Part shown: positions 2,007 to 20,444 of the stretch, piece after piece
Position numbering within the stretch: position 1 is the first letter of the stretch
How the letters are laid out: each line of letters starts with the position of its first letter
From: a virus
DNA length: 22,674 nucleotides
Direction: 5' to 3' (one strand)
IMG/VR virus record: IMGVR_UViG_3300021405_000367
Span: 1-22,674 of that record
Position numbers and translations under genes: made by a program
Notes under the pieces: generated by a model
Seen by the model: the letters and a program-made list of their open reading frames with translations, nothing else
The model's database searches: none
Told to the model about the DNA's origin: nothing

Positions 2007-2288
2007 TTAGCAATCGTTGACGGTGTAAGTGACGAATTGTGCCCAGCGTTTGAAGTTGTCCTCGTAGTGCTCAGCGAGTGGTCCCCAGCTGAAGCCGTCA
2101 ACAATCTCGTGGTTGCAGCCCTCGCACTTGTAAAGGTCCGCTCGCCAGATCTTGTATGGTTCCCAGTTCTCTTCATCTTCAAGACCAGGCTTGGCACCGT
2201 TGGCTTTCGGCATTTGCTCAAGCGCGAATATACCGTTCTTCTTCGGCTTGTAGAAACGTTTGCACTTCACACAGATCGGCTTCGGCAT
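2007..2288 (-). CDS. Zinc-ribbon hypothetical protein, 93 aa
   Basis: First gene of a leftward operon, directly downstream of the promoter at 2317-2346; AAGG lies about 9 bases before ATG 2288. It has two CxxC knuckles (C6/C9 and C55/C58), consistent with one zinc ribbon formed across an insertion, and a Trp/Tyr-rich C-terminal half (GFSWGPLAEHYEDNF region). The fold is inferred from the cysteine pairs. Substrate and partner are unknown; small zinc-ribbon proteins like this are common in phage early regions. Confidence 0.8.
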   Translation of the reverse strand: MPKPICVKCKRFYKPKKNGIFALEQMPKANGAKPGLEDEENWEPYKIWRADLYKCEGCNHEIVDGFSWGPLAEHYEDNFKRWAQFVTYTVNDC

Positions 2289-2316
2289 TTCATTGACCTT
2301 ATCTTTCTATTGTTCT

Positions 2317-2346
2317 ATTATATTATAGAACCATATAGTCACTCAA
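2317..2346 (-). promoter_or_regulatory. Leftward sigma70-type promoter PL1
   Basis: On the minus strand TTGAGT (2346-2341), an 18-bp spacer and TATAAT (2322-2317). The upstream block TCATTTGGACTC resembles that of the other operon promoters. The -10 lies inside an inverted repeat GTTCTAT/ATAGAAC. It drives 2288 leftward to the ligase. Confidence 0.7.
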
Positions 2347-2384
2347 GAGTCCAAATGATAGTCGGTCTCTTTAATTTTTGGGTA

Positions 2385-2795
2385 CTAGTCGATGCGCGCG
2401 ACTTCGAATGTGCCATCCTTCTGTACTATGCAAACATATGCTGACCTGTAAAAGAGGATCGTCTCGTCGCGTAGCTGGGCTTTCGCGAGCGGACTAAACT
2501 TTTGCGGATCCCCAGGGTAATAGAGTGTGTACTTGCCATCTATAGACATCCTGAACCCTTTGAATGGGTGCCAACCTCCTCCGTGTGTGTAGTTGTCATG
2601 GATCTGTTCCTTGGCTGGCTTGGGGTTGTCGACGCTCAGCCAGTGGGGAATGTAACCAAGGTGATCCACGGTCATGCGTGGGTGTAGTAGTTGGAAATCG
2701 ATCATGTGTCTTTCTTTCTCCAGGAGGTTGACTCGGGATTCCATGCCAGCAGCTTTCTGTTTGCGGCTGACGTAACGTTTATAGTATGTTGCCAT
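2385..2795 (-). CDS. Hypothetical protein, 136 aa
   Basis: Last gene of the operon that begins at 4938. It has a basic, helical N-terminus (residues 1-30) followed by a mixed beta-rich domain with GGGWHPFKGFRMSIDGK and a C-terminal strand pair (YVCIVQKDGTFEVARID). It starts at ATG 2795, 7 bases after the stop of the HTH gene, with GGAG within the end of that gene. The stop is followed after 35 bases by PL1. No family is recognised. Confidence 0.75.
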   Translation of the reverse strand: MATYYKRYVSRKQKAAGMESRVNLLEKERHMIDFQLLHPRMTVDHLGYIPHWLSVDNPKPAKEQIHDNYTHGGGWHPFKGFRMSIDGKYTLYYPGDPQKFSPLAKAQLRDETILFYRSAYVCIVQKDGTFEVARID

Positions 2796-2801
2796 CGTGT
2801 G

Positions 2802-3251
2802 TTAAGGCTCCGGATCCTTGGGGTGTACGTGCCAATCCTCGTTGGGGCCCCGCTTGAGGGTACTCGTAGCCACGTTTCGTACGTGTTGGTAGCGGAGATT
2901 CAAGTGCTTAGCAATCCGCTTGATCTCGAATTGTTCCGATACCAGATAGCGGATGCAAGCACTCTTAGTACGAAAGTTCTCCTTTAGCCACGAGAGTTGC
3001 GGCAAAGGCTTCAGAGGCATACCATCCTTGTCGAGCAACGGTGGCGTAGGCTCCTCGGGTGCCTCAGCGTCCTGAAAGGCTATGGCTTCGTGGAGCAAGG
3101 CTTGTTCGCCGCTGACAATTTCCGGCTTGATATCCTCACCGAATAGTTCTTTTAGAAATGGCTTGAAAGCCTTGGAGAGCTCTTGCTGCTCCTCAGCTCT
3201 CTGCGTCTCGAGCTCTAAGGCTCGAGGCTTACCTGTTTTACGTGCTAACAT
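2802..3251 (-). CDS. Helix-turn-helix protein, paralogue A (YQHVRNV family), 149 aa
   Basis: Two-part protein. Residues 1-90 are charged and probably disordered or helical (TPPLLDKDGMPLKPLPQ linker); residues 95-135 form a compact helix-turn-helix (IRYLVSEQFEIKRIAKHLNL, then YQHVRNV and TLKR). The same C-terminal module occurs in three other genes of this window. GAGG stands 5 bases before ATG 3251. A DNA-binding regulator role is inferred from the HTH pattern and the location in an early operon. Paralogue A has a longer tail after the LKR signature and has lost the proline of PLKR. Confidence 0.78.
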   Translation of the reverse strand: MLARKTGKPRALELETQRAEEQQELSKAFKPFLKELFGEDIKPEIVSGEQALLHEAIAFQDAEAPEEPTPPLLDKDGMPLKPLPQLSWLKENFRTKSACIRYLVSEQFEIKRIAKHLNLRYQHVRNVATSTLKRGPNEDWHVHPKDPEP

Positions 3252-3257
3252 GATGCC

Positions 3258-3512
3258 TCAGAATGGTATGTCGTCCGCGTTCTTGGGTGAATGTGCTTTG
3301 AGTACTGCGTTAAAGGCGTCGACTGCTCTCTTGTAGCGGAGCATATCCTTGGATTCGATGAAGATAGATAACTCGAAGGTGCTGTAGTCTTCGCCCGTGA
3401 TGTGACTCTCGCAGCGTAGCGACAACCAGTTGGTCGTGGTGCCCACACTTCCGAGGCTGAGGCTGACGTTTTTCACGTCGTGGATGTTAAAGTTACCGAT
3501 TCGTAGTCCCAT
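3258..3512 (-). CDS. Hypothetical protein, 84 aa
   Basis: Small beta-rich protein: the first 35 residues alternate polar and hydrophobic (MGLRIGNFNIHDVKNVSLSL), followed by one helix near the C-terminus. A strong AGGAAGGAA ribosome site precedes ATG 3512. It ends 6 bases before the HTH paralogue A, so the two are probably translated together. No motif or family is recognised. Confidence 0.75.
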   Translation of the reverse strand: MGLRIGNFNIHDVKNVSLSLGSVGTTTNWLSLRCESHITGEDYSTFELSIFIESKDMLRYKRAVDAFNAVLKAHSPKNADDIPF

Positions 3513-3542
3513 GGTTACGTTTCCTTCCTATTGCTGGTGTTG

Positions 3543-4938: not shown

Positions 4939-4994
4939 CGATGGACGTTGTTTCTTTGACCAAATGAAGTGACGTTGTTTTTTGGCACAATTAT

Positions 4995-5049: not shown

Positions 5050-5307
5050 TTATTTTTTGGTCCGCGTGGCTTCCCGGTTTGGTTTGGGTTTCGCGGCTGC
5101 TTCGCGGGCGACATCGTCAGACGTTCGAACTTCGCGCCTCTCGACGCGAACGATTCGCCACCGTACGCGAAGCTTAAGGTTATGCAGAGCGAAGTATTCT
5201 GCCCCTGCTTGCTTTGCACACGAGAAGATAGGGCGGCGGCCGATGATCTCTGTGTTCACAGTGTTGCTACCTCGGTCGACGAACACTTCGTATCTAACAT
5301 CCGACAT
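5050..5307 (-). CDS. Hypothetical basic protein, 85 aa
   Basis: Short protein with a beta-rich N-terminal half (VRYEVFVDRGSNTVNTEI) and a basic C-terminus rich in Arg, Lys, Ala and Pro, probably nucleic-acid contacting. ATG 5307 has GAGG 8 bases upstream; a TATAAT-like sequence overlaps the start codon itself, so it is unlikely to be the working -10 for this start. It stands alone between two intergenic control regions. Function unknown. Confidence 0.66.
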   Translation of the reverse strand: MSDVRYEVFVDRGSNTVNTEIIGRRPIFSCAKQAGAEYFALHNLKLRVRWRIVRVERREVRTSDDVAREAAAKPKPNREATRTKK

Positions 5308-5328: not shown

Positions 5329-5341
5329 TTTTTGGTCAAAA
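5329..5341 (-). promoter_or_regulatory. Single TTTTGACCAAAA box upstream of 5050-5307
   Basis: Minus strand TTTTGACCAAAAA, the same box that occurs in tandem at the structural-gene promoters (13546-13567, 20129-20150, 20242-20263). It lies 22 bases before ATG 5307. No well-spaced -35/-10 pair is visible around it, so its role as operator or -35 region is unclear. Confidence 0.4.
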
Positions 5342-5421
5342 GATGGTCCCCTCTTGGGGTGGGGAGGGGGAAACAACACAGAGTTTCAAGAGGCTCAATT
5401 GTGCCCCCTCCGACTCATTGC

Positions 5422-6040: not shown

Positions 6041-6493
6041 TTAGGAGGCCTTGCGCTTCAGCGGCTGGTTGAGCACGTTGCGCACGTGCTGGTAGCGGAA
6101 GGGGAACTTCCTTCCTGCCCCGAAGCGAGCTTCCATGATCTTCGCGATCGCCGAGACTTTAAACCCCTGACGCGACAATTCCCGCATCCGCTCGGAGGTG
6201 TTCGAAGCCTTACTGAAGGCCTCCTCGTCGACGCGATGCTCCTGCGGCAGTGTAGGCTGAGGTGCAGGCGCCGCAACCGCTAAGTTGCCTTCGACTTCCG
6301 TCTGTAGTGGCGCTGGCGCCTCAACGATCTCGCCGTCGGGGGTGAGAACGTGATCCGTCGTCACGAGATCTTCGACGGTGAGCGTAGGCGGCAAAGGCAG
6401 TGTAAAGTTCTCCGCCTGCTCGGCATTCAACTGAGCGAGGTTCTCGATCACTTCGCTGCTGCCGCTCTCGTTTGTCCTGTTGTGCTTACCCAT
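6041..6493 (-). CDS. Helix-turn-helix protein, paralogue B (YQHVRNV family), 150 aa
   Basis: The N-terminal 95 residues are Pro/Ala/Glu-rich and probably disordered; the C-terminal module at 98-148 carries MRELSRQGFKVSAIAKIM, then YQHVRNV and PLKR. Compared with the other three copies it has an 8-residue insertion (EARFGAGRKF region, about residues 121-131) between the two HTH helices. ATG 6493 is chosen over ATG 6523 because GGAG lies 10 bases upstream of it. It probably binds DNA; target unknown. A 6-bp hairpin (6537-6553) precedes it. Confidence 0.78.
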   Translation of the reverse strand: MGKHNRTNESGSSEVIENLAQLNAEQAENFTLPLPPTLTVEDLVTTDHVLTPDGEIVEAPAPLQTEVEGNLAVAAPAPQPTLPQEHRVDEEAFSKASNTSERMRELSRQGFKVSAIAKIMEARFGAGRKFPFRYQHVRNVLNQPLKRKAS

Positions 6494-6591
6494 AGTGTTT
6501 GTACTCCAGTTCAGGGATCTCAATCGATCTCATCAGCACACGCTTCACGTGTGGAGGGGACGCTTCACAGCGCGCCCTTTCGATCTGTTAA

Positions 6592-9659: not shown

Positions 9660-10270
9660 AAATAAAGGTCACCCGGTAGAATTTTGAGGGCGTCAGGGGC
9701 GGGAATTCTGAAAAAACGAAGATTGAGAAGGGTGTGGCGTGGGGGTATTTGTTTAACTTATTGAAATCATTCAGAAAAAGTGGTATGATTAGTTTCCTTT
9801 TGTCGATTTTCAGAAGATCCCGATGAGGTAGGAATTCTCCACGGGAATTCCGTGCTGTCCGACATAGCAAAGACCCTTCTCGATTTTGGTTTTTCATAAA
9901 AGGTTGCCTTAGTATTCTTTATAAGGATGTCTTTATAACTCTTTGATTTCATTAAGGAATATTAGTATGATTAGTATTAGTAGAGTAAAAGAGAGAGAGT
10001 TTCAAAACAGCAGTAGGCCAGGAACAGGCACAGTGTTCCTACAAAAAGCGATTTATAATAGTTTGAAGCGAAAATACTAATAATACTAGGGGAAGTACTT
10101 TTTCTTAATGATTTCAACGAGTTAAAAAGATAGCCTCCCGATTTTTATCAGATTTTATCAAGTACTCCCGATTGGGAACAACTATTTTTGTCCTTCTTAT
10201 GTTTCGCGGCGGTACGAATGTATGTACGGCGGAGCTTGTTGCCCTCTATGCCCTCTAGGACCTCCTGGAG
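9660..10270. other. AT-rich intergenic stretch with inverted repeats
   Basis: About 600 bases without a convincing gene. It holds GGAATTC/GAATTCC (9831-9851) with a further GGGAATTC at 9701, AGGAACA/TGTTCCT (10020-10040), and two CCCGATT copies around 10136-10180 separated by AT-rich sequence. Minus-strand frames here (9646-9897, 9767-9952) run into promoter PL5 or lack ribosome sites. Candidate regulatory or replication-origin region; no DnaA-box cluster was identified. Confidence 0.45.
9967..10080 (+). CDS. Possible small rightward ORF, 37 aa (weak)
   Basis: ATG 9967 has AAGGAA 7 bases upstream and encodes a 37-residue basic peptide (MISISRVKEREFQNSSRPGT start). It is the only plus-strand candidate in the left 13.6 kb. 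No well-spaced promoter was found, and the frame contains the inverted repeat 10020-10040. It could equally be chance in AT-rich sequence. Confidence 0.22.
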   Translation: MISISRVKEREFQNSSRPGTGTVFLQKAIYNSLKRKY

Positions 10271-10700: not shown

Positions 10701-10919
10701 CTAGCCGCGCTTCAAGGGTCGGTTGATCACGTTATTAGCGTGCTGGTACTTGATGTCGAGCACCTTCGCGATCTGCCCAGTCGTGAACGAGAGACTGTGG
10801 AGAAACCGGATCTGATCGGAAATGGTCGTGCACTGCATCAGGTGCTCCTCCATCTCGTCCGTCAGGGTTACCTGGAAGGTGGGGTTGTTCTTCTTCAGAC
10901 TGTTCGAATAGTTTGACAT
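10701..10919 (-). CDS. Helix-turn-helix protein, paralogue C (YQHVRNV family), 72 aa
   Basis: Short form of the family: N-terminus MSNYSNSLKKNN (shared with paralogue D), a helix SDQIRFLHSLSF, then IAKVLDIKYQHANNV and PLKR at the end. The arginine of the core YQHVRNV is replaced here (YQHANNV). AGGAAG is 8 bases before ATG 10919. A perfect hairpin occupies the predicted 5' end of its mRNA (10948-10969). Probably a DNA-binding regulator, inferred from the HTH. Confidence 0.8.
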   Translation of the reverse strand: MSNYSNSLKKNNPTFQVTLTDEMEEHLMQCTTISDQIRFLHSLSFTTGQIAKVLDIKYQHANNVINRPLKRG

Positions 10920-11475: not shown

Positions 11476-11694
11476 CTACTTACGCTTCAAAGGCCTTTCT
11501 AATATACCTCTAACGTGTTGATATGAAATACCTAAGATATTTTTAATCTGAGTTCTTTGATATCCTTCTCTATCTAGAAATCTAACTTGATCACTTACTG
11601 TAGTCATTCTACGTAAACTATCTTCTTCCATAGAAGTGATAGACTTTTGAGTTACTGTTTGATTCTTCTTGAGATTCTCTGAATAATTAGACAT
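11476..11694 (-). CDS. Helix-turn-helix protein, paralogue D (YQHVRNV family), 72 aa, AT-rich
   Basis: MSNYSENLKKN N-terminus, SDQVRFLDREGY, IKNILGISYQHVRGI and PLKRK, aligned without gaps to paralogue C over the whole length. AGAGGAAA is 6 bases before ATG 11694. It is a single-gene transcription unit with its own promoter (PL7) and terminator. Codon use is conspicuously AT-rich (TCT, AGA, ATA, ATT) compared with the rest of the window although the protein is so close to C, suggesting a separate origin. It probably binds DNA and may regulate itself. Confidence 0.82.
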   Translation of the reverse strand: MSNYSENLKKNQTVTQKSITSMEEDSLRRMTTVSDQVRFLDREGYQRTQIKNILGISYQHVRGILERPLKRK

Positions 11695-11992: not shown

Positions 11993-13447
11993 TTAGGCTA
12001 GACAGTAGGCTTTGGATGAGCCTGAACCGATCTCCACGAGCCCTAGCAACCCCTTATTGGCCTTAAGTAAGTGTGCCAGCTTCTTAGGCGAATCGAAAGT
12101 GGTAGGCCATATTGAGTCTGGCCCAAAACCAGTAACCTCGTGCGGGTAGCGACTCTTCCAATACACTCCTGCCCACTTACAGACATCCGCGGCCTGAAAC
12201 ACAGCCCTGGGGTTGGCACTCCGCACCGCCGAAACAAAGACCCGACACAACCGTAAGACCTCCTCCTCGTCGTCAACCGACCCTGAGCTACCATCGAACG
12301 CAGCCGTCGTGGTGAGCCCTAAGCCCGCAAGTGCCTCGACCGCGCCGGAATCCTGCAAAGTTGCATCCTCCCCCACAACTGGTGCAACAACCAACTCCTC
12401 GCGAAGCTTCCGAAGCAGCCCTCTAAAGTGTAACCGACCACCAATAACGCCGAGCTCGCGCCGCGACAGTATAAATGCTTGCTCCCAGGGCAACCCGAGA
12501 TATTGCGGCCTCTCACGCAGAAACGCCTCGAGATCCACCTTGGTACGCCCATATGGCACGTGTTCATCGTGCGAATGCATATCCCCTACCAATCTTGGCA
12601 CATTGATAAAAACCCCTCTCTGCTGAGAGACGGTTTGCCGTGCAAACTCAGGGTTGTGCGTCATCATCTCGAGATACTGATAGGCTGCTCGATGGTTGCC
12701 ATCGCTCCGATTGCCGGGCAGGTGCGATATAAAGGAACGTTCGAAGGGAAGCATCATGGGGCGAAGCTGTGCTGGTACTGAGCCCTGATTCGAAGCTGCG
12801 AGCAATATCCTAACCTTATCACGCAACTTATAGGGTATCGAGAGTATATCCTCAGCGATGTACTTGAGCCCAGCTTTCGAACATGCAATCACCACATAGT
12901 CCGAGGTCGTCCCTTCAACCATCTCGCGAACGGGAGAAGTAGTCGGTGGACTACGACGAGCAGCGTTGAGCATCCGCCACCAAACAGTTGTCACGAAAGG
13001 TTCGGCTGTCACGGAGAGCAGAATGTTTTCGGGCATGTTAGTTGTCGCCGAGAAATCGTATGGCACGACCCAGTCATCTATGTCCACGAACCCCATCGCT
13101 CCTGAGACGATCACCACTCTCTGAGGCCGAAAGGCCTCGATTGTCTTCATCAGGGTCTGGAAACCCATACCGCGATAGAGCTCTCGCGCCGTAATTCTAG
13201 GCTCCCGATGTGCGTCTATCAACTTCAGCCACTCGTTAAGAGCTTGCTCCATAGTGAGATGCTTCGGCAAGTCCGAGCAGCGAATGCGGGGACTCTCAGT
13301 CAACGAGCTCGCACACGACGTAATCAAGTCGAACGTCAAGTGTCTAGCCTCGAGCGGTGGCGAGAGCAATTCACCAGTCGCGTGGGCTCGCTCGATAGCT
13401 ACTTGCGCTGCTGCGTCCGACATAGGCATAGGCATCAAACCGTTCAT
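11993..13447 (-). CDS. Uncharacterised 484-aa protein, possible DUF6884/YaaA-like domain
   Basis: Start ATG 13447 is used because GGAGG lies 6 bases upstream; the ATG at 13453 touches the ribosome site. About residues 80-230 contain ARELYRG, then RVVIVSGAMGFVDIDD, a VVPYDFS segment, VWWRMLN and DYVVIACSK. These are pattern-wise like DUF6884/YaaA-related proteins, which carry a small-molecule or nucleobase-related fold. This is recognition by motif order only. A low-complexity linker (about 380-395) leads to a C-terminal, possibly winged-helix domain (VFQAADVCKWAGVYWKS onward). It is a monocistronic unit diverging from the terminase operon and sharing operator-like repeats with it. It could be a base-modification, host-takeover or regulatory protein. 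Confidence 0.8.
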   Translation of the reverse strand: MNGLMPMPMSDAAAQVAIERAHATGELLSPPLEARHLTFDLITSCASSLTESPRIRCSDLPKHLTMEQALNEWLKLIDAHREPRITARELYRGMGFQTLMKTIEAFRPQRVVIVSGAMGFVDIDDWVVPYDFSATTNMPENILLSVTAEPFVTTVWWRMLNAARRSPPTTSPVREMVEGTTSDYVVIACSKAGLKYIAEDILSIPYKLRDKVRILLAASNQGSVPAQLRPMMLPFERSFISHLPGNRSDGNHRAAYQYLEMMTHNPEFARQTVSQQRGVFINVPRLVGDMHSHDEHVPYGRTKVDLEAFLRERPQYLGLPWEQAFILSRRELGVIGGRLHFRGLLRKLREELVVAPVVGEDATLQDSGAVEALAGLGLTTTAAFDGSSGSVDDEEEVLRLCRVFVSAVRSANPRAVFQAADVCKWAGVYWKSRYPHEVTGFGPDSIWPTTFDSPKKLAHLLKANKGLLGLVEIGSGSSKAYCLA

Positions 13448-13474
13448 AATCATCCTCCAACGATCGTATTTCTG

Positions 13475-13503
13475 ATTTTACATCAAACATTATGATAAAT
13501 CAA
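13475..13503 (-). promoter_or_regulatory. Leftward promoter PL8 for the 484-aa gene
   Basis: Minus strand TTGATT (13503-13498), 17-bp spacer, TAAAAT (13480-13475). TTTGACCAGAA (13523-13513) followed by a degenerate second box TTTAACATATT lies directly upstream, mirroring the boxes of PR. Confidence 0.6.
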
Positions 13504-13545
13504 TATGTTAAATTCTGGTCAAATGAAGGGCGCCAGTTCATGCTC

Positions 13546-13567
13546 TTTGACCAAAATTTGACCAAAA
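13546..13567 (+). repeat. Tandem operator boxes upstream of PR
   Basis: Two exact copies of TTTGACCAAAA at 13546-13556 and 13557-13567, 8 bases before the -35 of PR. The same pair, slightly varied, precedes PL9 and PL10. The 11-bp period places both boxes on one helix face. Confidence 0.75.
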
Positions 13568-13575
13568 TAATTGTG

Positions 13576-13604
13576 TTGACATGCCACAAACAACATACTA
13601 TAAT
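13576..13604 (+). promoter_or_regulatory. Rightward consensus sigma70 promoter PR for packaging genes
   Basis: TTGACA (13576-13581), 17-bp spacer, TATAAT (13599-13604): full consensus. It starts the terminase/portal operon 37 bases before ATG 13641. Such a strong promoter for structural genes probably needs repression; the tandem boxes are the obvious candidate site. Confidence 0.88.
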
Positions 13605-13640
13605 TGGGGGATACAATTCGAATAGGCTAAGCGGACAACC

Positions 13641-14975
13641 ATGAAGCTCCAACCTGCTGACATTGACAAGCTCATAGCCCAAAACCGTCCGAAGCCGACG
13701 AACATCCGGAGCGCGGAAGACTACGTCAGTGAAAACGCCCAAGCGCGTGACGACTTCGTGACGAGTCTCACCTCATTCGAGAGCGCGGCTACGGCCCGCT
13801 ATGGCGAGACCCTCCCCAGAGCCCCACGTAGCTTGGGCACAATCATCCCACCCAGCGGCGCGACACTCCCGCTCTCAGGCGAAACCGAAACTCACCACGA
13901 GACCACAACTGACCCTAGCACGGAAGTCCCTGCTACTGCTGCTGGGTCGCGGGAACTAGGGGTGCCGGCCACCAGCCATGGCAGCCCACCCCCACTAGAA
14001 CTCGAAAGCCTCCTGGACGAAGACTTCGACCCGAATCTGCCTAGGGCCCTCCGCAACATCAAGCTCAACGAGATCGAATCGAGAGCCGATCTCGTCCGCA
14101 ACCTCACGAAAAACCTTCCCCTCAACGAATTCCAACTCCCCCGCTTCATCTACCGAAGCGATCTCCTCGACTGGACGATCTTCGCGCAAACTCCCCCCGA
14201 CTACAAGCTGATGGAGGAGTATCTCGACAACAGCCAGCTCACCCTCAACTACTCCGAAGGGTACCCAACGCTACCCGATGGATCCCCTTTGTGGGGCAAG
14301 TTCGGCTGGGAGACTCAGGATGAATACTCGGCCTTCACCGAATACTGCACCCTTCCGGGGATGCGCTCGTTGGCCAAGCTGACCCAAACCCAAACCCAAG
14401 CTCCTATGACGTTGCTCACGGAGTGGTTCCACGAGCGCTACTGGGGGCTCCGCTCTAAGTGTTTCGACATGATGAGGGCTATTCACGCAGCCAAACAGCG
14501 TGAACAGCGCATTATGGCCTGCGAGGACAACCACTACCTCGTGGCAGAAGGCCTTCTCGCGAAGCTCAAGGGCATCGAGGACGGTGTCGAGTGGGAACAG
14601 CTCAAAGCAGAGCCCGAGAAGTACGTGAAGGTGCTCGAAACCATCATGAAGCTGCAACGCATGGCGCTTGGTCTCACCACCATGGGCCAGCAAGGCGGGA
14701 GCTCGCGCGAACTTAGAGCCGAAACCATCGAGATGTCGATGCGTCGCATCACGAATCCAGAGACATACCAGCTGGAAAGCCCCGACAGAATCAAAGCCAT
14801 TACTCTTCAACAAGGCGTATCGCTCACCAATCCCAACGTGCCTACCGACGGCATCAATGTGCGGAAGCTGCTTAAAGACCCTGCAGCGCTAGCATCCGCG
14901 CAAGAACTCGTCATCCGTATGACGAGAGCCACGGAGATCAGCCATGCAAACCCCAACGATAGCGACGATAGTTGA
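13641..14975 (+). CDS. Putative small terminase subunit-like protein, 444 aa
   Basis: First gene of the packaging operon. Residues 55-130 are Pro/Ser/Thr-rich and probably disordered; about residues 225-315 carry DEYSAFTEYCTLPGMRSLAK, then WFHERYWGLRSKCFDMMRAI and a long basic-acidic helix. This order (W/F..Y..LPG.RS, a weak HTH, W..R...YD-like segment, helix) is seen in small terminase-like DNA-recognition proteins. At 444 aa it is longer than typical small terminases (150-250). Small-terminase identity rests on this pattern and on being upstream of the large terminase. A scaffold-like or regulatory role remains possible. Ribosome site weak (AGCGGA). Confidence 0.6.
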   Translation: MKLQPADIDKLIAQNRPKPTNIRSAEDYVSENAQARDDFVTSLTSFESAATARYGETLPRAPRSLGTIIPPSGATLPLSGETETHHETTTDPSTEVPATAAGSRELGVPATSHGSPPPLELESLLDEDFDPNLPRALRNIKLNEIESRADLVRNLTKNLPLNEFQLPRFIYRSDLLDWTIFAQTPPDYKLMEEYLDNSQLTLNYSEGYPTLPDGSPLWGKFGWETQDEYSAFTEYCTLPGMRSLAKLTQTQTQAPMTLLTEWFHERYWGLRSKCFDMMRAIHAAKQREQRIMACEDNHYLVAEGLLAKLKGIEDGVEWEQLKAEPEKYVKVLETIMKLQRMALGLTTMGQQGGSSRELRAETIEMSMRRITNPETYQLESPDRIKAITLQQGVSLTNPNVPTDGINVRKLLKDPAALASAQELVIRMTRATEISHANPNDSDDS

Positions 14976-15069
14976 CGACATCAACACGGTCCAGGACTTG
15001 TTCTGGCGTGCACTTGGCGCTTTCATGGTCGGCTACATGTTCGTTTGGGTATATCTGCACGTAGGGTAA
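14944..15069 (+). CDS. Small membrane protein, 41 aa, single helix
   Basis: ATG 14944 lies inside the end of the previous gene (32-base overlap), with GGAG 7 bases upstream. Residues 19-40 (LFWRALGAFMVGYMFVWVYL) form one hydrophobic membrane helix after a polar N-terminus with two Asp. First of three consecutive mini membrane proteins between the terminase genes. Possible holin-like, lysis-regulating or superinfection-exclusion role; none can be assigned. Confidence 0.62.
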   Translation: MQTPTIATIVDDINTVQDLFWRALGAFMVGYMFVWVYLHVG

Positions 15070-15098
15070 TAGTGCCCGTGGAGATGGAGAGTGGCAAA

Positions 15099-15278
15099 GT
15101 GAGTACAATCCTTATCGTAGTCTTGATCATCCTCATATTCGGGGGAGGTGGTGGCTACTATGCTAACGGTCGGTGGGGAGGTGCTGGCCTTGGTGGCGTT
15201 CTAGGGCTTGTGCTCGTCGTAGTACTGATAATCTGGCTCCTCGGCGGGGTCGGAGTCGGCCACAGTCTTCGCTACTAG
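15099..15278 (+). CDS. DUF3309-like small membrane protein, 59 aa
   Basis: GTG 15099 is favoured by GGAG 9 bases upstream and because DUF3309 proteins typically start with MSTIL. Alternatives are ATG 15084 and GTG 15072. Two hydrophobic segments (residues about 2-15 and 33-50) surround a Gly-rich loop with GGGGGYYANGRWGG, the usual layout of the DUF3309 family (short proteins, frequent in alphaproteobacteria and their phages, function unknown). Second of the three mini membrane proteins. Confidence 0.7.
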   Translation: MSTILIVVLIILIFGGGGGYYANGRWGGAGLGGVLGLVLVVVLIIWLLGGVGVGHSLRY

Positions 15279-15293
15279 GAGCAGGGGAACGCT

Positions 15294-15467
15294 ATGCCTA
15301 AGGGTTTGCTGTTCTGGATCATCTACGTTGTCTGCCTCGTGCTCTGGTTAGTGGCTGACTTCGGCGGTGTGTTTGGCGGATATGGCCACCTCGCTGGAGG
15401 CGGTATCGTCGACTTCATCCTGATCGGTCTGCTTGGTTGGGGTATCTTTGGGGCTCCTATTCAGTGA
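15294..15467 (+). CDS. Small membrane protein, 57 aa, two helices; holin-like candidate
   Basis: ATG 15294 has AGGGGAA 5-6 bases upstream. Two hydrophobic segments (about residues 4-20 and 38-52) are joined by a Gly-rich loop (FGGVFGGYGHLAGGG). The end WGIFGAPIQ resembles other phage mini membrane proteins found near packaging and lysis genes. Two membrane segments and a short length are compatible with a class II holin, but no endolysin is in the window. Its TGA overlaps the GTG start of the large terminase. Confidence 0.68.
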   Translation: MPKGLLFWIIYVVCLVLWLVADFGGVFGGYGHLAGGGIVDFILIGLLGWGIFGAPIQ

Positions 15468-16987
15468 ACGAAGTCTCAACCCTACCAATCAGCGAACATA
15501 ACGAGGAAGCATTACAGCAGCTTGCGCAGAATTGGCGGCTAACCCCTGCTACTCTGGCGTACAAACTGGCCCAAGGCCGGTGGATCCCAGCAGCTTGGCT
15601 GCTTTATGTCTCCCAGATCATAGCTGCCGCGATTGCCAAGGGTAGCGGGCGCATAATCATCTCGGCACCGCCTCGGCACGGGAAATCCCAGCTGGTTGAC
15701 GTGTATACGCCCATCTGGGTGCTCGAAAACTTCCCTAGACACCAGGTGATTCTCACATCTTACGGCGCGGAGCTCTCGGAAGGCTTCGGGCGTGAGACTC
15801 GAGACACCATCATTGCGAACCAACACATCCTCAATTGCCGTGTCAAGTCCGATGCACGGCAGGTTAACAACTTCCTTATGGAAGGCGGAGGTGGAATGCT
15901 GTCGACAGGCGTCGGTGGTTCCATCACAGGTAGGGGAGCGAACGTCTTACTGGTCGACGATTATGTCAAGGAAATCAAGGAAGCTCTGTCACAAGTCTAC
16001 CGAGACTACATATGGAATTGGTTTACTACCACTGCCTACACCAGACTTGAGCCCGGTGGTACCGTTATCATCATCGCTACTCGTTGGCATAGCGACGATC
16101 TCATCGGACGGATCACTAAAGCTTTTCCTGGCCAATGGACAAATATCATCCTTCCAGCTCTGGCCGAGCAAAACGACCTGCTTGGACGACTCCCAGGCCA
16201 ACCCCTCTTCCCAGAACGGTACCCGCTTTCCGTTCTACTAGAGCGTTTTGAAGTCCTAGGACCCGCATTCTTCCAGGCTCTATACCAACAGCGCCCGCTT
16301 GACGAAGCTCGCAAGATCAGTGACGGCAACTGGCTCAAAATCGTCCAGATTGTGCCTGCTGACCTCAAGCTAATCAGGATGTGGGACCTCGCGACCACGG
16401 AGGACGGTGGTGACTACACTGTTGGAAGCCTGTGTGGCTATCAACCTGTTACTGGCTTTTTCTTCGTCCTTAACATTATCCGAAAGCAGTGCTCTCCGGG
16501 TCAAGCGGAGTCTCTGGTTCTGGATACAGCTATTCAGGATGGCCCTGGTATTCCTATTGGCATTGGTGCTGGTGGCCCTATGGGCAAAGCCCTCGTAGAA
16601 CACTACCAGAGGACTATCCTACCCGAGTTCAAGGTCGAGCCCTTCCCAGAAACCCTGAAGAAGGTGCTACGAGCACAACCCCTTCTGGCGGGAGCCCAAG
16701 CGGGGAAGGTGTTCCTGCTAGAGGCAGCATGGGTCCCAGCGTTCGTGCACGAGTTTGATACCTTCCCTGGCATGTATGACGACCAAGTCGATACAGTAGC
16801 GGCAGCTTACACGAAGCTTACAGGTAAAAAACTCTACTCAGCTACTTGGGGGAGAGAGCCAGCCAACATCACAGGCAAAACCGATGCCATTCGTAAAGGT
16901 AAGCTCCAGCGAGCAGCTCAATTTCAACTTTCCAGACCCGCGGGTGCCACCTGGGGAAGCCGTAACCTCACCCCAACCAACCGATGA
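15464..16987 (+). CDS. terL: Terminase large subunit
   Basis: ATP-driven DNA-packaging motor with headful or site-specific nuclease. Residues numbered from GTG 15464: Walker A SAPPRHGKS (67-75), Walker B VLLVDD (161-166), coupling motif IIATRW (203-208), FQALYQQRP (270-278), then the RNase H-like nuclease domain with MWDLATTEDGGDYT (306-319, acidic D308) and D440/D443 in YDDQVDTVAAA (438-448). Length of 507 aa is normal. The GTG overlaps the preceding TGA (GTGA), so translational coupling is likely; an upstream TTG at 15437 is less plausible. The family call is firm; which packaging mechanism it uses cannot be told. Confidence 0.95.
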   Translation: MNEVSTLPISEHNEEALQQLAQNWRLTPATLAYKLAQGRWIPAAWLLYVSQIIAAAIAKGSGRIIISAPPRHGKSQLVDVYTPIWVLENFPRHQVILTSYGAELSEGFGRETRDTIIANQHILNCRVKSDARQVNNFLMEGGGGMLSTGVGGSITGRGANVLLVDDYVKEIKEALSQVYRDYIWNWFTTTAYTRLEPGGTVIIIATRWHSDDLIGRITKAFPGQWTNIILPALAEQNDLLGRLPGQPLFPERYPLSVLLERFEVLGPAFFQALYQQRPLDEARKISDGNWLKIVQIVPADLKLIRMWDLATTEDGGDYTVGSLCGYQPVTGFFFVLNIIRKQCSPGQAESLVLDTAIQDGPGIPIGIGAGGPMGKALVEHYQRTILPEFKVEPFPETLKKVLRAQPLLAGAQAGKVFLLEAAWVPAFVHEFDTFPGMYDDQVDTVAAAYTKLTGKKLYSATWGREPANITGKTDAIRKGKLQRAAQFQLSRPAGATWGSRNLTPTNR

Positions 16988-17153
16988 CGAGCTAGTCACC
17001 ACAACTGCCACGGCCACCGTTTACAACTTCCGCCCTTGGATCGACTGGCCAAGCTGGAGCAATTCGATCCCTAGAAGAGCATCCGCAGCCAGCTGTACGG
17101 ACGCACACAATCCTAATTGGGGCTACATTCGTAGATCGTACAAGGGGTACTAG
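16884..17153 (+). CDS. Hypothetical small protein, 89 aa or shorter, between terminase and portal
   Basis: The frame overlaps the end of the terminase gene by about 100 bases if started at ATG 16884; a later GTG at 16944 would shorten the overlap. The sequence is Pro/Ser/Thr-rich in its first half and aromatic in its second (VYNFRPWIDWPSWSNSI), ending WGYIRRSYKGY three bases before the portal GTG. Placement between coupled genes supports it; the composition gives no function. It may be a minor head-joining or disordered linker protein. Confidence 0.5.
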   Translation: MPFVKVSSSEQLNFNFPDPRVPPGEAVTSPQPTDDELVTTTATATVYNFRPWIDWPSWSNSIPRRASAASCTDAHNPNWGYIRRSYKGY

Positions 17154-17155
17154 TT

Positions 17156-18709
17156 GTGGGCAACGTAATTAACGCACAAATGCTGTTTAATAGGGTGCGA
17201 ATGTGGATGGCGGGGATCGCGTTTGGCGGTCGCCGCGACCTCTACGAACTCTTCGGTTACGAGCGACTTGTTGACTACCGCAACTTTACTGCGATGTACT
17301 ATCGCAACGGCATCGCGAAAACCGTAGTGGACTTGCCAGTGCGATCGACTTGGGCAGATCCTCCGCAACTTGGGGCCGATAATCCCGAGTTTAACCAGGC
17401 TTGGGCAGATCTGTGCGACACGAGCTCCTTGTGGTCCAACATCATGCGGCTCGACAAGCTTGCTGGGCTTGGACGGTTCGCCGTCATGGTAGTAGGCTTC
17501 GATGACGGTCTTCCGCTGGATCTACCGCTGGAACTGCCAGCAAACTGGACTCAATACCAACCTTTCAACATCCCTGTAGGTTGGCCAGCCTTGGGACCTT
17601 TACAGTCCTGGGAAGCACCAATCAAGCCGAAAGCAGGACGTAAGGTGCTCTACTTGCAGCCCTACCACGAGGCTGCAATCAGCATTTTACAGTGGGAAAC
17701 GGACACGACAAACCCCAGATTCGGACGCCCCCTGATGTACAACATCAATCCAGGGCGCTTCCTCATCGAGGGACTGCAAGCAACCATTGCACCTGGCATG
17801 AATGCGGTGCAGCTCCGTCAACCCTTCAACGTCCACCATTCAAGAGTCGTACACATCGCGGAGAACCTTCTAGAGGATCAGACCTTCGGCTGCTCCAGGA
17901 TGGAGGCTGTATTCAACGACGTCAACGACATGATGAAAGTCTCGGGAGGCTCGGCTGAGCTGTTTTGGACCCTTGCGAACAGGGGGATGCAGGTCAATGT
18001 TGACAAGGAGATGGATCTCTCGCCTGAGGACGCGAAAGAGCTCCAGAGCGAGGTTGAAAACTACCAACACCAGATCCAGAGATTTATCCGAACACGCGGT
18101 GTGGACATTAAGGACCTTGGCTCTGTTGCTAACCATGCTGATCCTATTAATGTGGCTAAAGTTCTGATCATGATGATCTCGGCCGGCACCGGGATTCCAC
18201 AGCAGATGTTCTGGGGTTCCGCTGGCGGCAATGTGGCATCACACCAAGACAGAGCGAACTGGAGCGATCGAGTCTCGGAACGCGTCACTGAGTACGCGGA
18301 GCCCATCGTGCTTAAGCGGTTCCTTGACTGTATGATCAACGCTGGCGTCTGCCCAGCCCCACAGAACTTACAGATCTCGTGGCCAGAGGCTTTCAAGTTG
18401 AGTCCCCTCGAACGCGCTCAGACCTCTGCCCAGATGGCTCGCTCGGCTGTCAATCTCACGAAGGCCAAGATTCAGAGCCTAACAGCTTCGGACGAACAAG
18501 GGAATTCGCTGGATGAGCCTTCGTTGTTCACCGACCACGAGATGCGTAGGATTGTCAGCTTCGGCAAACATCCTCCGGTGTTCGACGATCCAGTACCAAC
18601 AGGTGACACACCACTCACAGGGCAATCACCCGATCCCAAAGTGGATGCCGACACTGGTGGCGTTATTGGCTCCGGCTCCGCTGGGGATGGCTCGCCACCC
18701 AACCAATAA
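17156..18709 (+). CDS. Phage portal protein, DUF1073/Acb1-like N-terminal family
   Basis: GTG 17156 with AAGGGG 8 bases upstream. A 517-residue protein matching the DUF1073 (PF06381) portal family in pattern: YELFGYERLVDYRNFTAMYY and RNGIAKTVVDLPVRSTWADP near the N-terminus, LAGLGRFAVMVVGFDDG (about 101-117), then FWTLANRGMQVNVD, and the conserved GTGIPQQMFWGSAGGNVASH (344-363) with RERV-type helix and SWPEAFKLSPLERAQ. Portals form the dodecameric DNA channel at the head vertex. In databases this family is labelled anti-CBASS Acb1-like N-terminal because of a shared domain; the catalytic Acb1 part is not seen here. A proline/glycine-rich tail follows. Confidence 0.92.
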   Translation: MGNVINAQMLFNRVRMWMAGIAFGGRRDLYELFGYERLVDYRNFTAMYYRNGIAKTVVDLPVRSTWADPPQLGADNPEFNQAWADLCDTSSLWSNIMRLDKLAGLGRFAVMVVGFDDGLPLDLPLELPANWTQYQPFNIPVGWPALGPLQSWEAPIKPKAGRKVLYLQPYHEAAISILQWETDTTNPRFGRPLMYNINPGRFLIEGLQATIAPGMNAVQLRQPFNVHHSRVVHIAENLLEDQTFGCSRMEAVFNDVNDMMKVSGGSAELFWTLANRGMQVNVDKEMDLSPEDAKELQSEVENYQHQIQRFIRTRGVDIKDLGSVANHADPINVAKVLIMMISAGTGIPQQMFWGSAGGNVASHQDRANWSDRVSERVTEYAEPIVLKRFLDCMINAGVCPAPQNLQISWPEAFKLSPLERAQTSAQMARSAVNLTKAKIQSLTASDEQGNSLDEPSLFTDHEMRRIVSFGKHPPVFDDPVPTGDTPLTGQSPDPKVDADTGGVIGSGSAGDGSPPNQ

Positions 18710-18719
18710 AGGGGTTTTG

Positions 18720-19100
18720 ATGCTTATGGCAGAGGAAGAGAAAGTAACACTTCGCGACTACATGGACCGAAGGTTTGAGGACTTCGACAAGGCAGTCCTC
18801 GCTGCGCACAACGCAACAGAACGAGCCCTAGAGAAAGCGGATAAAGCCACTGAGAAGCGCTTCGACGGCGTAAACGAGTTTCGGGCCGTTCTCACAGACC
18901 AGCAGCGGACGTTTCTAACTAGGGCCGAGTTCGAGTCCGAACACGCAAGTCTCATAGCTAGAGTCGACTCTCTAGAGGATTGGCGTGCCTCTGCTTCAGG
19001 GCAAGAGGCTGGCAGCTGGAGGTCGATCGAGCGGCTAATCCTGATTTGTTCCCTCATCGCAGCTGTGGCGATTGTGTTCGTTGAGTGGTTCCGCAAATGA
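18720..19100 (+). CDS. Coiled-coil protein with C-terminal membrane anchor, 126 aa
   Basis: ATG 18720 is chosen by AAAGGGG 6 bases upstream; ATG 18726 is also possible. Residues 1-95 are a highly charged helix (VTLRDYMDRRFEDFDKAVLA; ATERALEKADKATEKRFDGV) and residues about 103-120 form one hydrophobic segment (LILICSLIAAVAIVFVEWF) with a basic end. The layout resembles XhlA-like or holin-accessory phage proteins: soluble coiled coil in the cytoplasm, one anchor. Last gene of the rightward operon; the next gene converges 15 bases away. Confidence 0.75.
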   Translation: MLMAEEEKVTLRDYMDRRFEDFDKAVLAAHNATERALEKADKATEKRFDGVNEFRAVLTDQQRTFLTRAEFESEHASLIARVDSLEDWRASASGQEAGSWRSIERLILICSLIAAVAIVFVEWFRK

Positions 19101-19115
19101 CGTTGCGTCGCCAAA

Positions 19116-19322
19116 CTACCAGATTGTGGTGTCTACACACTGAAACATGCAGGCCTGGGACGCGAGCGGACAAACGTCCCACTGTTTGTCCGACGTCCGC
19201 TGGAACTCGTTAACGTAAGGGAGTACAGCAGCGTCGCATTCGCCACGCGTGAGAGGGCGATCCGGATGAAGGATCACCGGTGGGTCTCCCAGCAACGTCA
19301 TCACCACAAACCAGGTCTTCAC
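19116..19322 (-). CDS. Hypothetical small protein, 68 aa
   Basis: GTG 19322 overlaps the TAG of the upstream gene (TAGTG), so its translation is probably coupled. The N-terminus is MKTWFVVMTLLG, followed by LTRGECDAAVLPYVNEFQ and a Cys-rich C-terminus (four Cys). I recall similar short proteins with a 'VMTLL' start in alphaproteobacterial phages, but this is not verified. The coding sequence contains a 9-bp hairpin CGGACAAAC/GTTTGTCCG (19167-19192), which may end transcription at the convergent border. Confidence 0.66.
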   Translation of the reverse strand: MKTWFVVMTLLGDPPVILHPDRPLTRGECDAAVLPYVNEFQRTSDKQWDVCPLASQACMFQCVDTTIW

Positions 19323-19705
19323 TAAGGTGAAGGTACAGTTTGTGGAATGTTAACGGCGTAAGTTCCAACATCCCCAGCGCCAGTAAGACCATTATCTGGC
19401 GCCATATCAGTAATCATAGTCCCAGGTGCAACACCGTTACCGCTAATAGTTTGACCTATACCAAGAGAGCCAGAATCAGCTTGCGTAACAGTTAATATTG
19501 TACCTTGAATGGTTCCCTGAAACGGAATATTGTTAACACCAGCCTGACTCCAATTCGCATAAGCGTCTGAGTATGGCGGAATTAACCCAGTAGTTGGATC
19601 AGGTGCAGTACTCGCCCACAATGGGATTGTGTACTGCGTCTGTGCCTGTGCCTGGGCTACAGAGCCAATGCCAAGCAAGAGGATTGTAGGGATGGCCCAC
19701 TTCAC
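19322..19705 (-). CDS. Exported beta-rich protein, 127 aa
   Basis: GTG 19705 overlaps the upstream stop (GTGA). Residues 1-21 are a signal peptide (MKWAIPTILLLGIGSVAQAQ), followed by YTIPLWASTAPDPTTG and a beta repeat GTILTVTQADSGSLGIG / GNGVAPGTMITDMAPDNG / GTYAVN. This 'GT-x-LTVT...GVAPGT-x-I' module is common in exported and tail-associated phage proteins. The first part is related to 19702-20061, suggesting duplication. Location outside the cytoplasm is inferred from the signal peptide. Function unknown. Confidence 0.75.
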   Translation of the reverse strand: MKWAIPTILLLGIGSVAQAQAQTQYTIPLWASTAPDPTTGLIPPYSDAYANWSQAGVNNIPFQGTIQGTILTVTQADSGSLGIGQTISGNGVAPGTMITDMAPDNGLTGAGDVGTYAVNIPQTVPSP

Positions 19706-20061
19706 GGCAGGATAACCCCAGTGTTTGCGGCAAACGTCTGGATGGTCGTCACCGGGGCGACCGTAACGAGAGTGAACGTTGAGGCCGCAGTACCGGCGCC
19801 GCTAGTATAGCCGCCGATCGCTAGGTTCGACTCGTTGGATGATGCGGTACCAGGCACCCAGGTAATCGGTGCTACGGAGCAGACAAAGATAACCGTACCC
19901 GCTGGAATTGGAATACCTAAGCTACTCCCAGAAGGGACACAGTTTGCCCCGGTTGATGTCGGGCTAGTGGATTGCCACTGCGGAATAGTGTAGTTGCCGG
20001 CAAAAGCACTATTCAAACCAAGACAAAGCAGCGCGGCCGAAGCTAGAAGCAGTTTTTTCAT
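19702..20061 (-). CDS. Exported hypothetical protein, 119 aa
   Basis: Signal peptide MKKLLLASAALLCLGLNSAF-A, then GNYTIPQWQSTSPTSTGANC and a Thr/Ser/Val-rich beta domain to VILP. Two Cys may form a disulphide outside the cytoplasm. GAGG precedes ATG 20061 and promoter PL9 lies directly upstream. It shares the YTIP-x-W-x-ST-x-P motif right after the signal peptide with the next gene. It may be displayed on the host surface or be virion-associated; unknown. Confidence 0.75.
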   Translation of the reverse strand: MKKLLLASAALLCLGLNSAFAGNYTIPQWQSTSPTSTGANCVPSGSSLGIPIPAGTVIFVCSVAPITWVPGTASSNESNLAIGGYTSGAGTAASTFTLVTVAPVTTIQTFAANTGVILP

Positions 20062-20090
20062 GGCATCCTCATCAAAACCCGGAAAGAAGT

Positions 20091-20119
20091 ATTGTATTAT
20101 AAAAGACTAAGGAAGTCAA
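20091..20119 (-). promoter_or_regulatory. Leftward promoter PL9 with tandem boxes 20129-20150
   Basis: Minus strand TTGACT (20119-20114), 17-bp spacer, TACAAT (20096-20091). Upstream boxes CCTGACCAAAA and TTTGACCGAAA occupy 20150-20129. It drives 20061-19116. Confidence 0.75.
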
Positions 20120-20204
20120 GAGGAATTATTTCGGTCAAATTTTGGTCAGGCAATGGTGGCCTCTTCAAAGCAGTTGTGTGGTTCTTGAAAAACCGGAAAG
20201 AAGT

Positions 20205-20233
20205 ATGATACTATAGAAACCAGTCAAAATCAA
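20205..20233 (-). promoter_or_regulatory. Leftward promoter PL10 with tandem boxes 20242-20263
   Basis: Minus strand TTGATT (20233-20228), 17-bp spacer, TATCAT (20210-20205). Boxes CCTGACCAAAA and TTTGACCCAAA lie at 20263-20242 and overlap the stop codon of 20259-20444. The transcript would read through 90 non-coding bases before PL9. Confidence 0.65.
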
Positions 20234-20258
20234 CAGGAATTTTTGGGTCAAATTTTGG

Positions 20259-20444
20259 TCAGGCTTTACGTGGGCGCGATTTCGAACCGTCGCGGAGTTC
20301 CCACAGCTCGGCAATCAGTGCATCTATCCATTCAGGCTCGCACACCTGAGTTCTGATAAGATAGCGAACCCGCTGGGCTTGCACCTTCTGCTCAATGGCG
20401 AATAGCTGTTCGTCGGTTAAGCGCTGCTCGATCGTTTTAGTCAT
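20259..20444 (-). CDS. Hypothetical protein, 61 aa
   Basis: Helical, charged protein (IEQRLTDEQLFAIEQKVQAQ; EWIDALIAELWELRDG) with a basic end. ATG 20444 lies 10 bases after the stop of the beta-helix gene; the ribosome site AGGCGG is weak. Its TGA is inside the first operator box of PL10. It may be a small chaperone or regulator of the neighbouring exported proteins; no evidence. Confidence 0.65.
   Translation of the reverse strand: MTKTIEQRLTDEQLFAIEQKVQAQRVRYLIRTQVCEPEWIDALIAELWELRDGSKSRPRKA

Follow-up and report, generated by a model that had tools for sequence, protein, structure and literature searches.

Tandem GACC boxes upstream of virion-operon promoters in an almost uncultured phage lineage, and a candidate helix-turn-helix regulator

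Tandem GACC-type boxes at a fixed distance upstream of the -35 element were found at the virion-gene promoters of a phage represented by the IMG/VR virus record IMGVR_UViG_3300021405_000367 (22,674 bp, the whole of which is called the window here). What the sequences establish is the element itself, the fixed register that it occupies, its conservation and which genes lie behind it. Judged from sequence, the promoter element is true and conserved, and a regulator of virion production very probably docks at the paired boxes, because diverged relatives keep the signal at the same two operons. In a sigma70-type class of late promoters (consensus [GACCnnnAAAT]-[GACCnnnAAAT]-TCCTS-TTGAnn-17/18-TATnAT), the boxes would be the upstream half, the tandem being bound by a helix-turn-helix (HTH) protein of the YQHVRN family that helps polymerase to fire the virion operons; this reading is given a probability of about 0.55.

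At the rightward promoter PR, the tandem boxes TTTGACCAAAA-TTTGACCAAAA (13546-13556 and 13557-13567, + strand) stop 8 nt short of the -35 element of a TTGACA-17-TATAAT core (13576-13604, +; -35 at 13576, -10 at 13599) that matches the consensus at 12 of 12 positions. Behind it lies the rightward late operon, opened by the small terminase subunit gene (13641-14975, +; phrog_6299, E 7.5e-6) and followed by the large terminase subunit (15437-16987, +; phrog_38, E 7e-77) and portal protein (17156-18709, +; phrog_146, E 3e-53; PF06381, E 1e-26) genes. On the other strand, tandem pairs are present in PL9 (20140-20150 and 20129-20139, -), 9 nt before the TTGACT (20119) of TTGACT-17-TACAAT (20091-20119, -), and in PL10 (20253-20263 and 20242-20252, -), 8 nt before the TTGATT (20233) of TTGATT-17-TATCAT (20205-20233, -). 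The distal box of PL10 overlaps the stop codon of an open reading frame (20259-20444). PL9 and PL10 precede a gene (19702-20061, -) for a small protein with a signal-peptide-like start and no database match; they are copies of each other (repeats D4/D10, 113-114 bp apart), and thus are not independent. An initial annotation of the window had placed tandem boxes at PR, PL9 and PL10, exactly where they are seen here. It had also described a degenerate pair at PL8, of which one good box is left, TTTGACCAGAA (13513-13523, -), 9 nt before the TTGATT (13503) of TTGATT-17-TAAAAT (13475-13503, -); the alleged second box (13502-13512) overlaps the -35 element and gives no match.

With up to two mismatches allowed, the box has 16 matches against 5.2 expected, and none of 100 shuffles reaches 16. 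All eight window matches to TTTGACCAAAA that are exact or carry one mismatch are in noncoding DNA, which makes up 14.7% of the window. An identical, longer IMG/VR copy of the record (29,749 bp) extends about 7 kb further on the right. In this full contig GACC-N7-GACC occurs five times, and other spacings from 2 to 20 give 0-2 occurrences; the shuffle mean is 1.07, but the maximum of 200 shuffles is also 5, and the pair count alone is therefore modest evidence. The fifth pair (5330-5351, -) lies upstream of gene 5050-5307 with no clear promoter at the late spacing. It had been recorded as a single copy near 5330-5340 (-), which is in fact half of a pair with its distal GACC at 5348. Another single copy reported at 4955-4965 is present, but has no -35 element at the late offset.

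The element was also predicted by a position-specific scoring matrix (PSSM) trained on 19 box-bearing small-terminase promoters of other phages, this phage excluded. A scan of the 29.75-kb contig returned exactly six sites, with scores from 17.9 to 39.9 (next best 3.1; best of 12 shuffles 9.6): PR (39.9, the top match), PL9 (36.0), PL10 (35.4), PL8 (17.9) and two promoters beyond the window (about 15819-15876, +, and 15812-15765, -, of the longer copy, L001). The latter lie back to back. Facing rightward, the tandem pair TCTGACCAAAA-TTTGACCAAAA ends 8 nt ahead of TTGAGG-17-TATTAT and heads an operon that encodes a DUF2213 protease, a decoration protein and the major capsid protein; facing leftward, on the opposite strand, a single GACCGAAA-GATTCCTG precedes TTGATT-17-TATTAT and a collagen-like tail-fibre gene.

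A search of IMG/VR based on the HTH protein yielded phages with the same gene order and diverged sequence, from which 40 non-redundant small-terminase promoters were taken; a DNA search against phage records found no nucleotide relatives. GACC starts 16 nt before the -35 element in 15 of these promoters, 17 nt before it in five and 27 nt before it in ten, against 0.14 expected per offset. It ranks first among 256 tetramers at 59 offsets, and no other GC-bearing tetramer-offset pair comes near, unless it is part of the GACC registers. Total counts of GACC-N7-GACC in the HTH loci are not enriched; enrichment is confined to the promoter register. Because the box class was picked for its proximal GACC, its information content at that position is circular; the argument therefore relies on the histogram of the 40 promoters, which were not selected for the box, together with the distal GACC and the scan of a phage outside the training set. 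When the box pattern was used as a DNA query against 2.9 million contigs, it mostly retrieved small-terminase or protease/capsid promoters of this lineage; the exceptions are a site before a nuclease-like gene (L077) and a few matches that look like chance (L070, L081).

A second set of relatives was collected through portal and large terminase (TerL) only, independently of HTH and box. These also keep the element at the small-terminase promoter, as pairs in L215, L216, L245 and L251 and as a single box in L065, L249 and L281. In L215 (TerL 70%) the boxes read directly as GACCAAAATTTGACCAAAAATAATGTG-TTGATG. A second structural operon is also preceded by the element in L065, L216, L245 and L281. 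Both the small-terminase and protease operons carry it in contigs G002, G003 and G017 and in Brevundimonas phages (the small-terminase operon only in G014), and the isolated Brevundimonas phages have GACC 17 nt upstream of the -35 element at both promoters. A late promoter class with GACC 16-17 nt before the -35 element is thus found at the small-terminase and protease operons of the lineage. The claim that every identifiable structural promoter, rightward or leftward, has the same box, spacing and place is borne out by the two promoters beyond the window and with the small-terminase and protease/capsid operons of relatives.

With a transcription start 7 nt past the -10 element, the two GACC tetramers would be centred at about -49.5 and -60.5, sharing one helix face and clear of the core, which is an activator-like position. 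Two regulator monomers would sit there head-to-tail, one helical turn apart, beside the polymerase without covering the core sites, and would aid the host sigma70 RNA polymerase at the virion operons. An extended strong promoter read by polymerase alone, through an upstream promoter (UP)-like element or A-tract bending, could account for the A-tracts phased by 11 bp and for the conserved AAA at -9 to -7 and CC at -4/-3 before the -35 element. However, recognition of AT only at about -40 to -60 was not what was found: the tetramer with the strictest position is GACC, which bears GC and occurs in two exact registers, something that AT-rich UP elements do not explain, and the absence of a dedicated factor is decidedly improbable.

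The box might instead be read by a host factor, either a response regulator of the OmpR/PhoB type or LexA or CtrA of alpha-proteobacteria, which bind 4-mers at N7 spacing. The same pitch is known from LexA (GTTC/GAAC-N7 direct repeats in alpha-proteobacteria, PMC3091678), CtrA (TTAA-N7-TTAA, reported in Brevundimonas phages, PMC9437464) and PhoP (direct repeats with an 11-bp pitch, PMC4832192). The CtrA sites resemble the present ones as tandem 4-bp half-sites with N7 in intergenic phage DNA, Brevundimonas phages included, but they consist of TTAA, serve a host regulator and lie in gap regions, whereas here the late boxes are all GACC-N7-GACC or single GACC, in a fixed 16/27-nt register before the -35 element of structural operons. 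LexA shares the N7 direct repeat, but neither GAAC-N7-GAAC nor GTTC-N7-GTTC is seen, the third base of the half-site being C at all late promoters, and the boxes are upstream of the -35 element with no SOS-gene link seen. The OmpR/PhoB family is alike in layout, with head-to-tail subsites and strict spacing, and direct repeats at an 11-bp pitch do occur beside the -35 element here (GACC at 16 and 27 nt). However, these systems use a response regulator, and no such gene of the winged-helix type was recognised in the window, where the candidate is a single HTH protein of 72 amino acids. As the half-site is GACC, neither GAAC nor TTAA, at every late promoter here, and the box is conserved inside one phage lineage, a host reader is unlikely.

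The preferred candidate, a small phage-encoded YQHVRN HTH protein that would be expressed from the early leftward block, is the paralogue nearest the small-terminase gene (11476-11694, -); further paralogues are encoded at 10701-10919 (-), 6041-6523 (-, with a long N-terminal extension) and 2802-3251 (-, with an N-terminal extension). Every small-terminase-bearing contig of the first set, which was HTH-chosen, has one to four such proteins, one of them usually divergent from and adjoining the small-terminase gene. In the HTH-independent set, 17 contigs extend at least 2.5 kb upstream of the small-terminase gene, and 15 of them encode a divergent copy inside that distance. Because of this recurrence, the YQHVRN HTH protein is the most likely regulator on present sequence evidence and the leading candidate. 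The divergent copy in the window is 1.9 kb from the small-terminase gene because a DUF6884-like gene intervenes (11993-13453, -; PF21818, E 1.2e-5, below the family cut-off). The closest relative, L215, also has this gene between the two (2243-3526), and elsewhere the HTH gene is directly adjacent. The predicted structure is a compact, confident HTH (pLDDT >90 over the core) with generic LuxR/sigma-region-4 similarity; a PDB fold search gave only generic HTH proteins (best 2x48, E 0.28). In Pfam and PHROGs nothing matches the family convincingly, and NCBIfam Cbp1 matched weakly. In bacteria its relatives are antitoxin-like proteins from Alphaproteobacteria and Chloroflexi, where the YQHVRN HTH forms the N-terminal domain of proteins that resemble AbrB/VapB and of some that resemble GIY-YIG proteins (L104-L159). 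These have the HTH core KRYQHVRNVL in common with the phage proteins, which lack the AbrB-like C-terminal part, and the chromosomal upstream regions carry other motifs; several repeat CTACCTAACTA-like words. Word enrichment in the HTH-terminase intergenic regions yielded no single universal regulator site. A palindrome, CCATCCTnnnAGGATGG, in the HTH promoter region of L028, L044, L050, L053 and L054 is a possible autoregulatory operator.

Several observations weigh against the YQHVRN protein as a late activator acting through the box. No HTH gene was found adjoining the small-terminase gene in L262 and L281, HTH genes are also present in phages without a box at the small-terminase promoter (some of which carry GACCATCA at other promoters), and by eye no GACC pairs were obvious upstream of the chromosomal HTH relatives. 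The core box is not late-specific in relatives, and PR, with its perfect consensus core, should need no activator. The last point speaks against strict activator dependence, and so leaves some probability to a host factor or to a repressor or timing role. In the latter case the regulator would keep the structural promoters shut off until it disappears or is titrated away; near-consensus cores that would fire unaided are seen at PR, at several other promoters and at the small-terminase promoters of relatives. However, repressor sites usually overlap core promoter elements, and these end 8-9 nt upstream of the -35 element without core overlap, so that repression is also improbable. Upstream sites for activation are familiar from P2 Ogr and Mu C (the latter in PMC4461284), the late activators of phage late promoters. 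These are alike in the upstream activator site and differ in site sequence and protein family.

All TTGnnn-16/18-TATAAT promoters of the relatives were surveyed in two groups. A good match to GACCATCA is found at offset 16 in 27 of 49 (group A) and at offset 17 in 20 of 41 (group B), with a median of 0 elsewhere, and most of the promoters that carry it precede genes without a recognisable structural role. The core box GACCATCA is thus a lineage-wide promoter element, and the virion class is set apart by a tandem with one-turn pitch, by AAATTCCTG and by a spacer of mostly 17 nt (17 or 18 in relatives). The earlier view that the box marks late promoters only is not supported, as PL8 serves the DUF6884-like gene, which is no known structural gene, and relatives have GACCATCA at the same offset before many non-structural ones.

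Five repeated leftward promoters of the window fit a matching class, CCATCATTTTGGmCnTTGATTGACnAT, that is called early from position and strand, not from expression: P2288 (2325-2385, -), P4938 (4990-5062, -; ...GGTCGCCCATCATTTTGGACG-TTGATT-GACC...TATAAT), P7248 (7303-7369, -), P8904 (8943-9013, -) and P9582 (9624-9690, -). Related boxes are thus seen at both early and late promoter classes. One regulator could serve both programmes in a switch like that of phi29 p4, repressing early promoters via GACC-type sites beside or across the -35 element and activating late ones from the upstream pair. The five promoters have GGTCG[AC]CCATCATTTTGGmCnTTGATTGACnAT in common, with a GACC-like site just within the spacer in P4938 and P8904 and another such site about 38 nt upstream, and GACCATCA is the box consensus in relatives. 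However, the early repeats are copies of one element and so count as one observation, and the spacer site is degenerate in three of the five (GAAC, GACT, GACT). The proposal shares with phi29 an early phage protein that would act on early and late blocks running in opposite directions, but the p4 sites are inverted repeats and the late -35 element is poor (PMC3100819), whereas here the repeats are direct and the -35 element is good, as in PR. Such a switch is rather doubtful. It is tentatively possible that the whole transcription programme of this lineage of soil phages derives from one half-site family (GACC/GACCATCA) at different registers around sigma70 cores, read by tiny HTH paralogues, with a single box plus spacer site for early and the one-turn tandem pair for virion promoters.

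Some further features were seen in the relatives and the window. In L029, L038, L044, L047, L050, L054 and L066 the small-terminase start codon is 6 nt past the -10 element (TATAATnnnnnnATG/GTG), and thus the mRNA is probably leaderless. TTAA-N6-TTAA, with a likeness to the CtrA half-site, stands 11-12 nt before the small-terminase -35 element (more in L020) in L020, L021, L037 and L055; a whole-contig search for this pattern gave few additional matches. The Brevundimonas relatives carry 7-deazaguanine synthesis genes (ON529866, L177, 36851-39169), which suggests that their phage DNA is modified. In the window, an AT-rich, gene-poor stretch has inverted repeat arms of 44 nt (9738-9781 and 10097-10140; 82% complementary, 315 nt apart) that could be a mobile element or replication feature. 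Searches for tRNAs and Rfam families gave no match.

The assignment of the boxes to structural genes is therefore largely right for this phage and too narrow for the lineage. With this element as a signature, virion-gene promoters can be predicted from sequence throughout a phage lineage that is almost uncultured, and as isolated Brevundimonas phages have the same architecture, timing and regulator are directly testable. If it is true that YQHVRN proteins read the box, an uncharacterised HTH family, which is also the DNA-binding part of many antitoxin-like proteins, would gain a function and a binding site.

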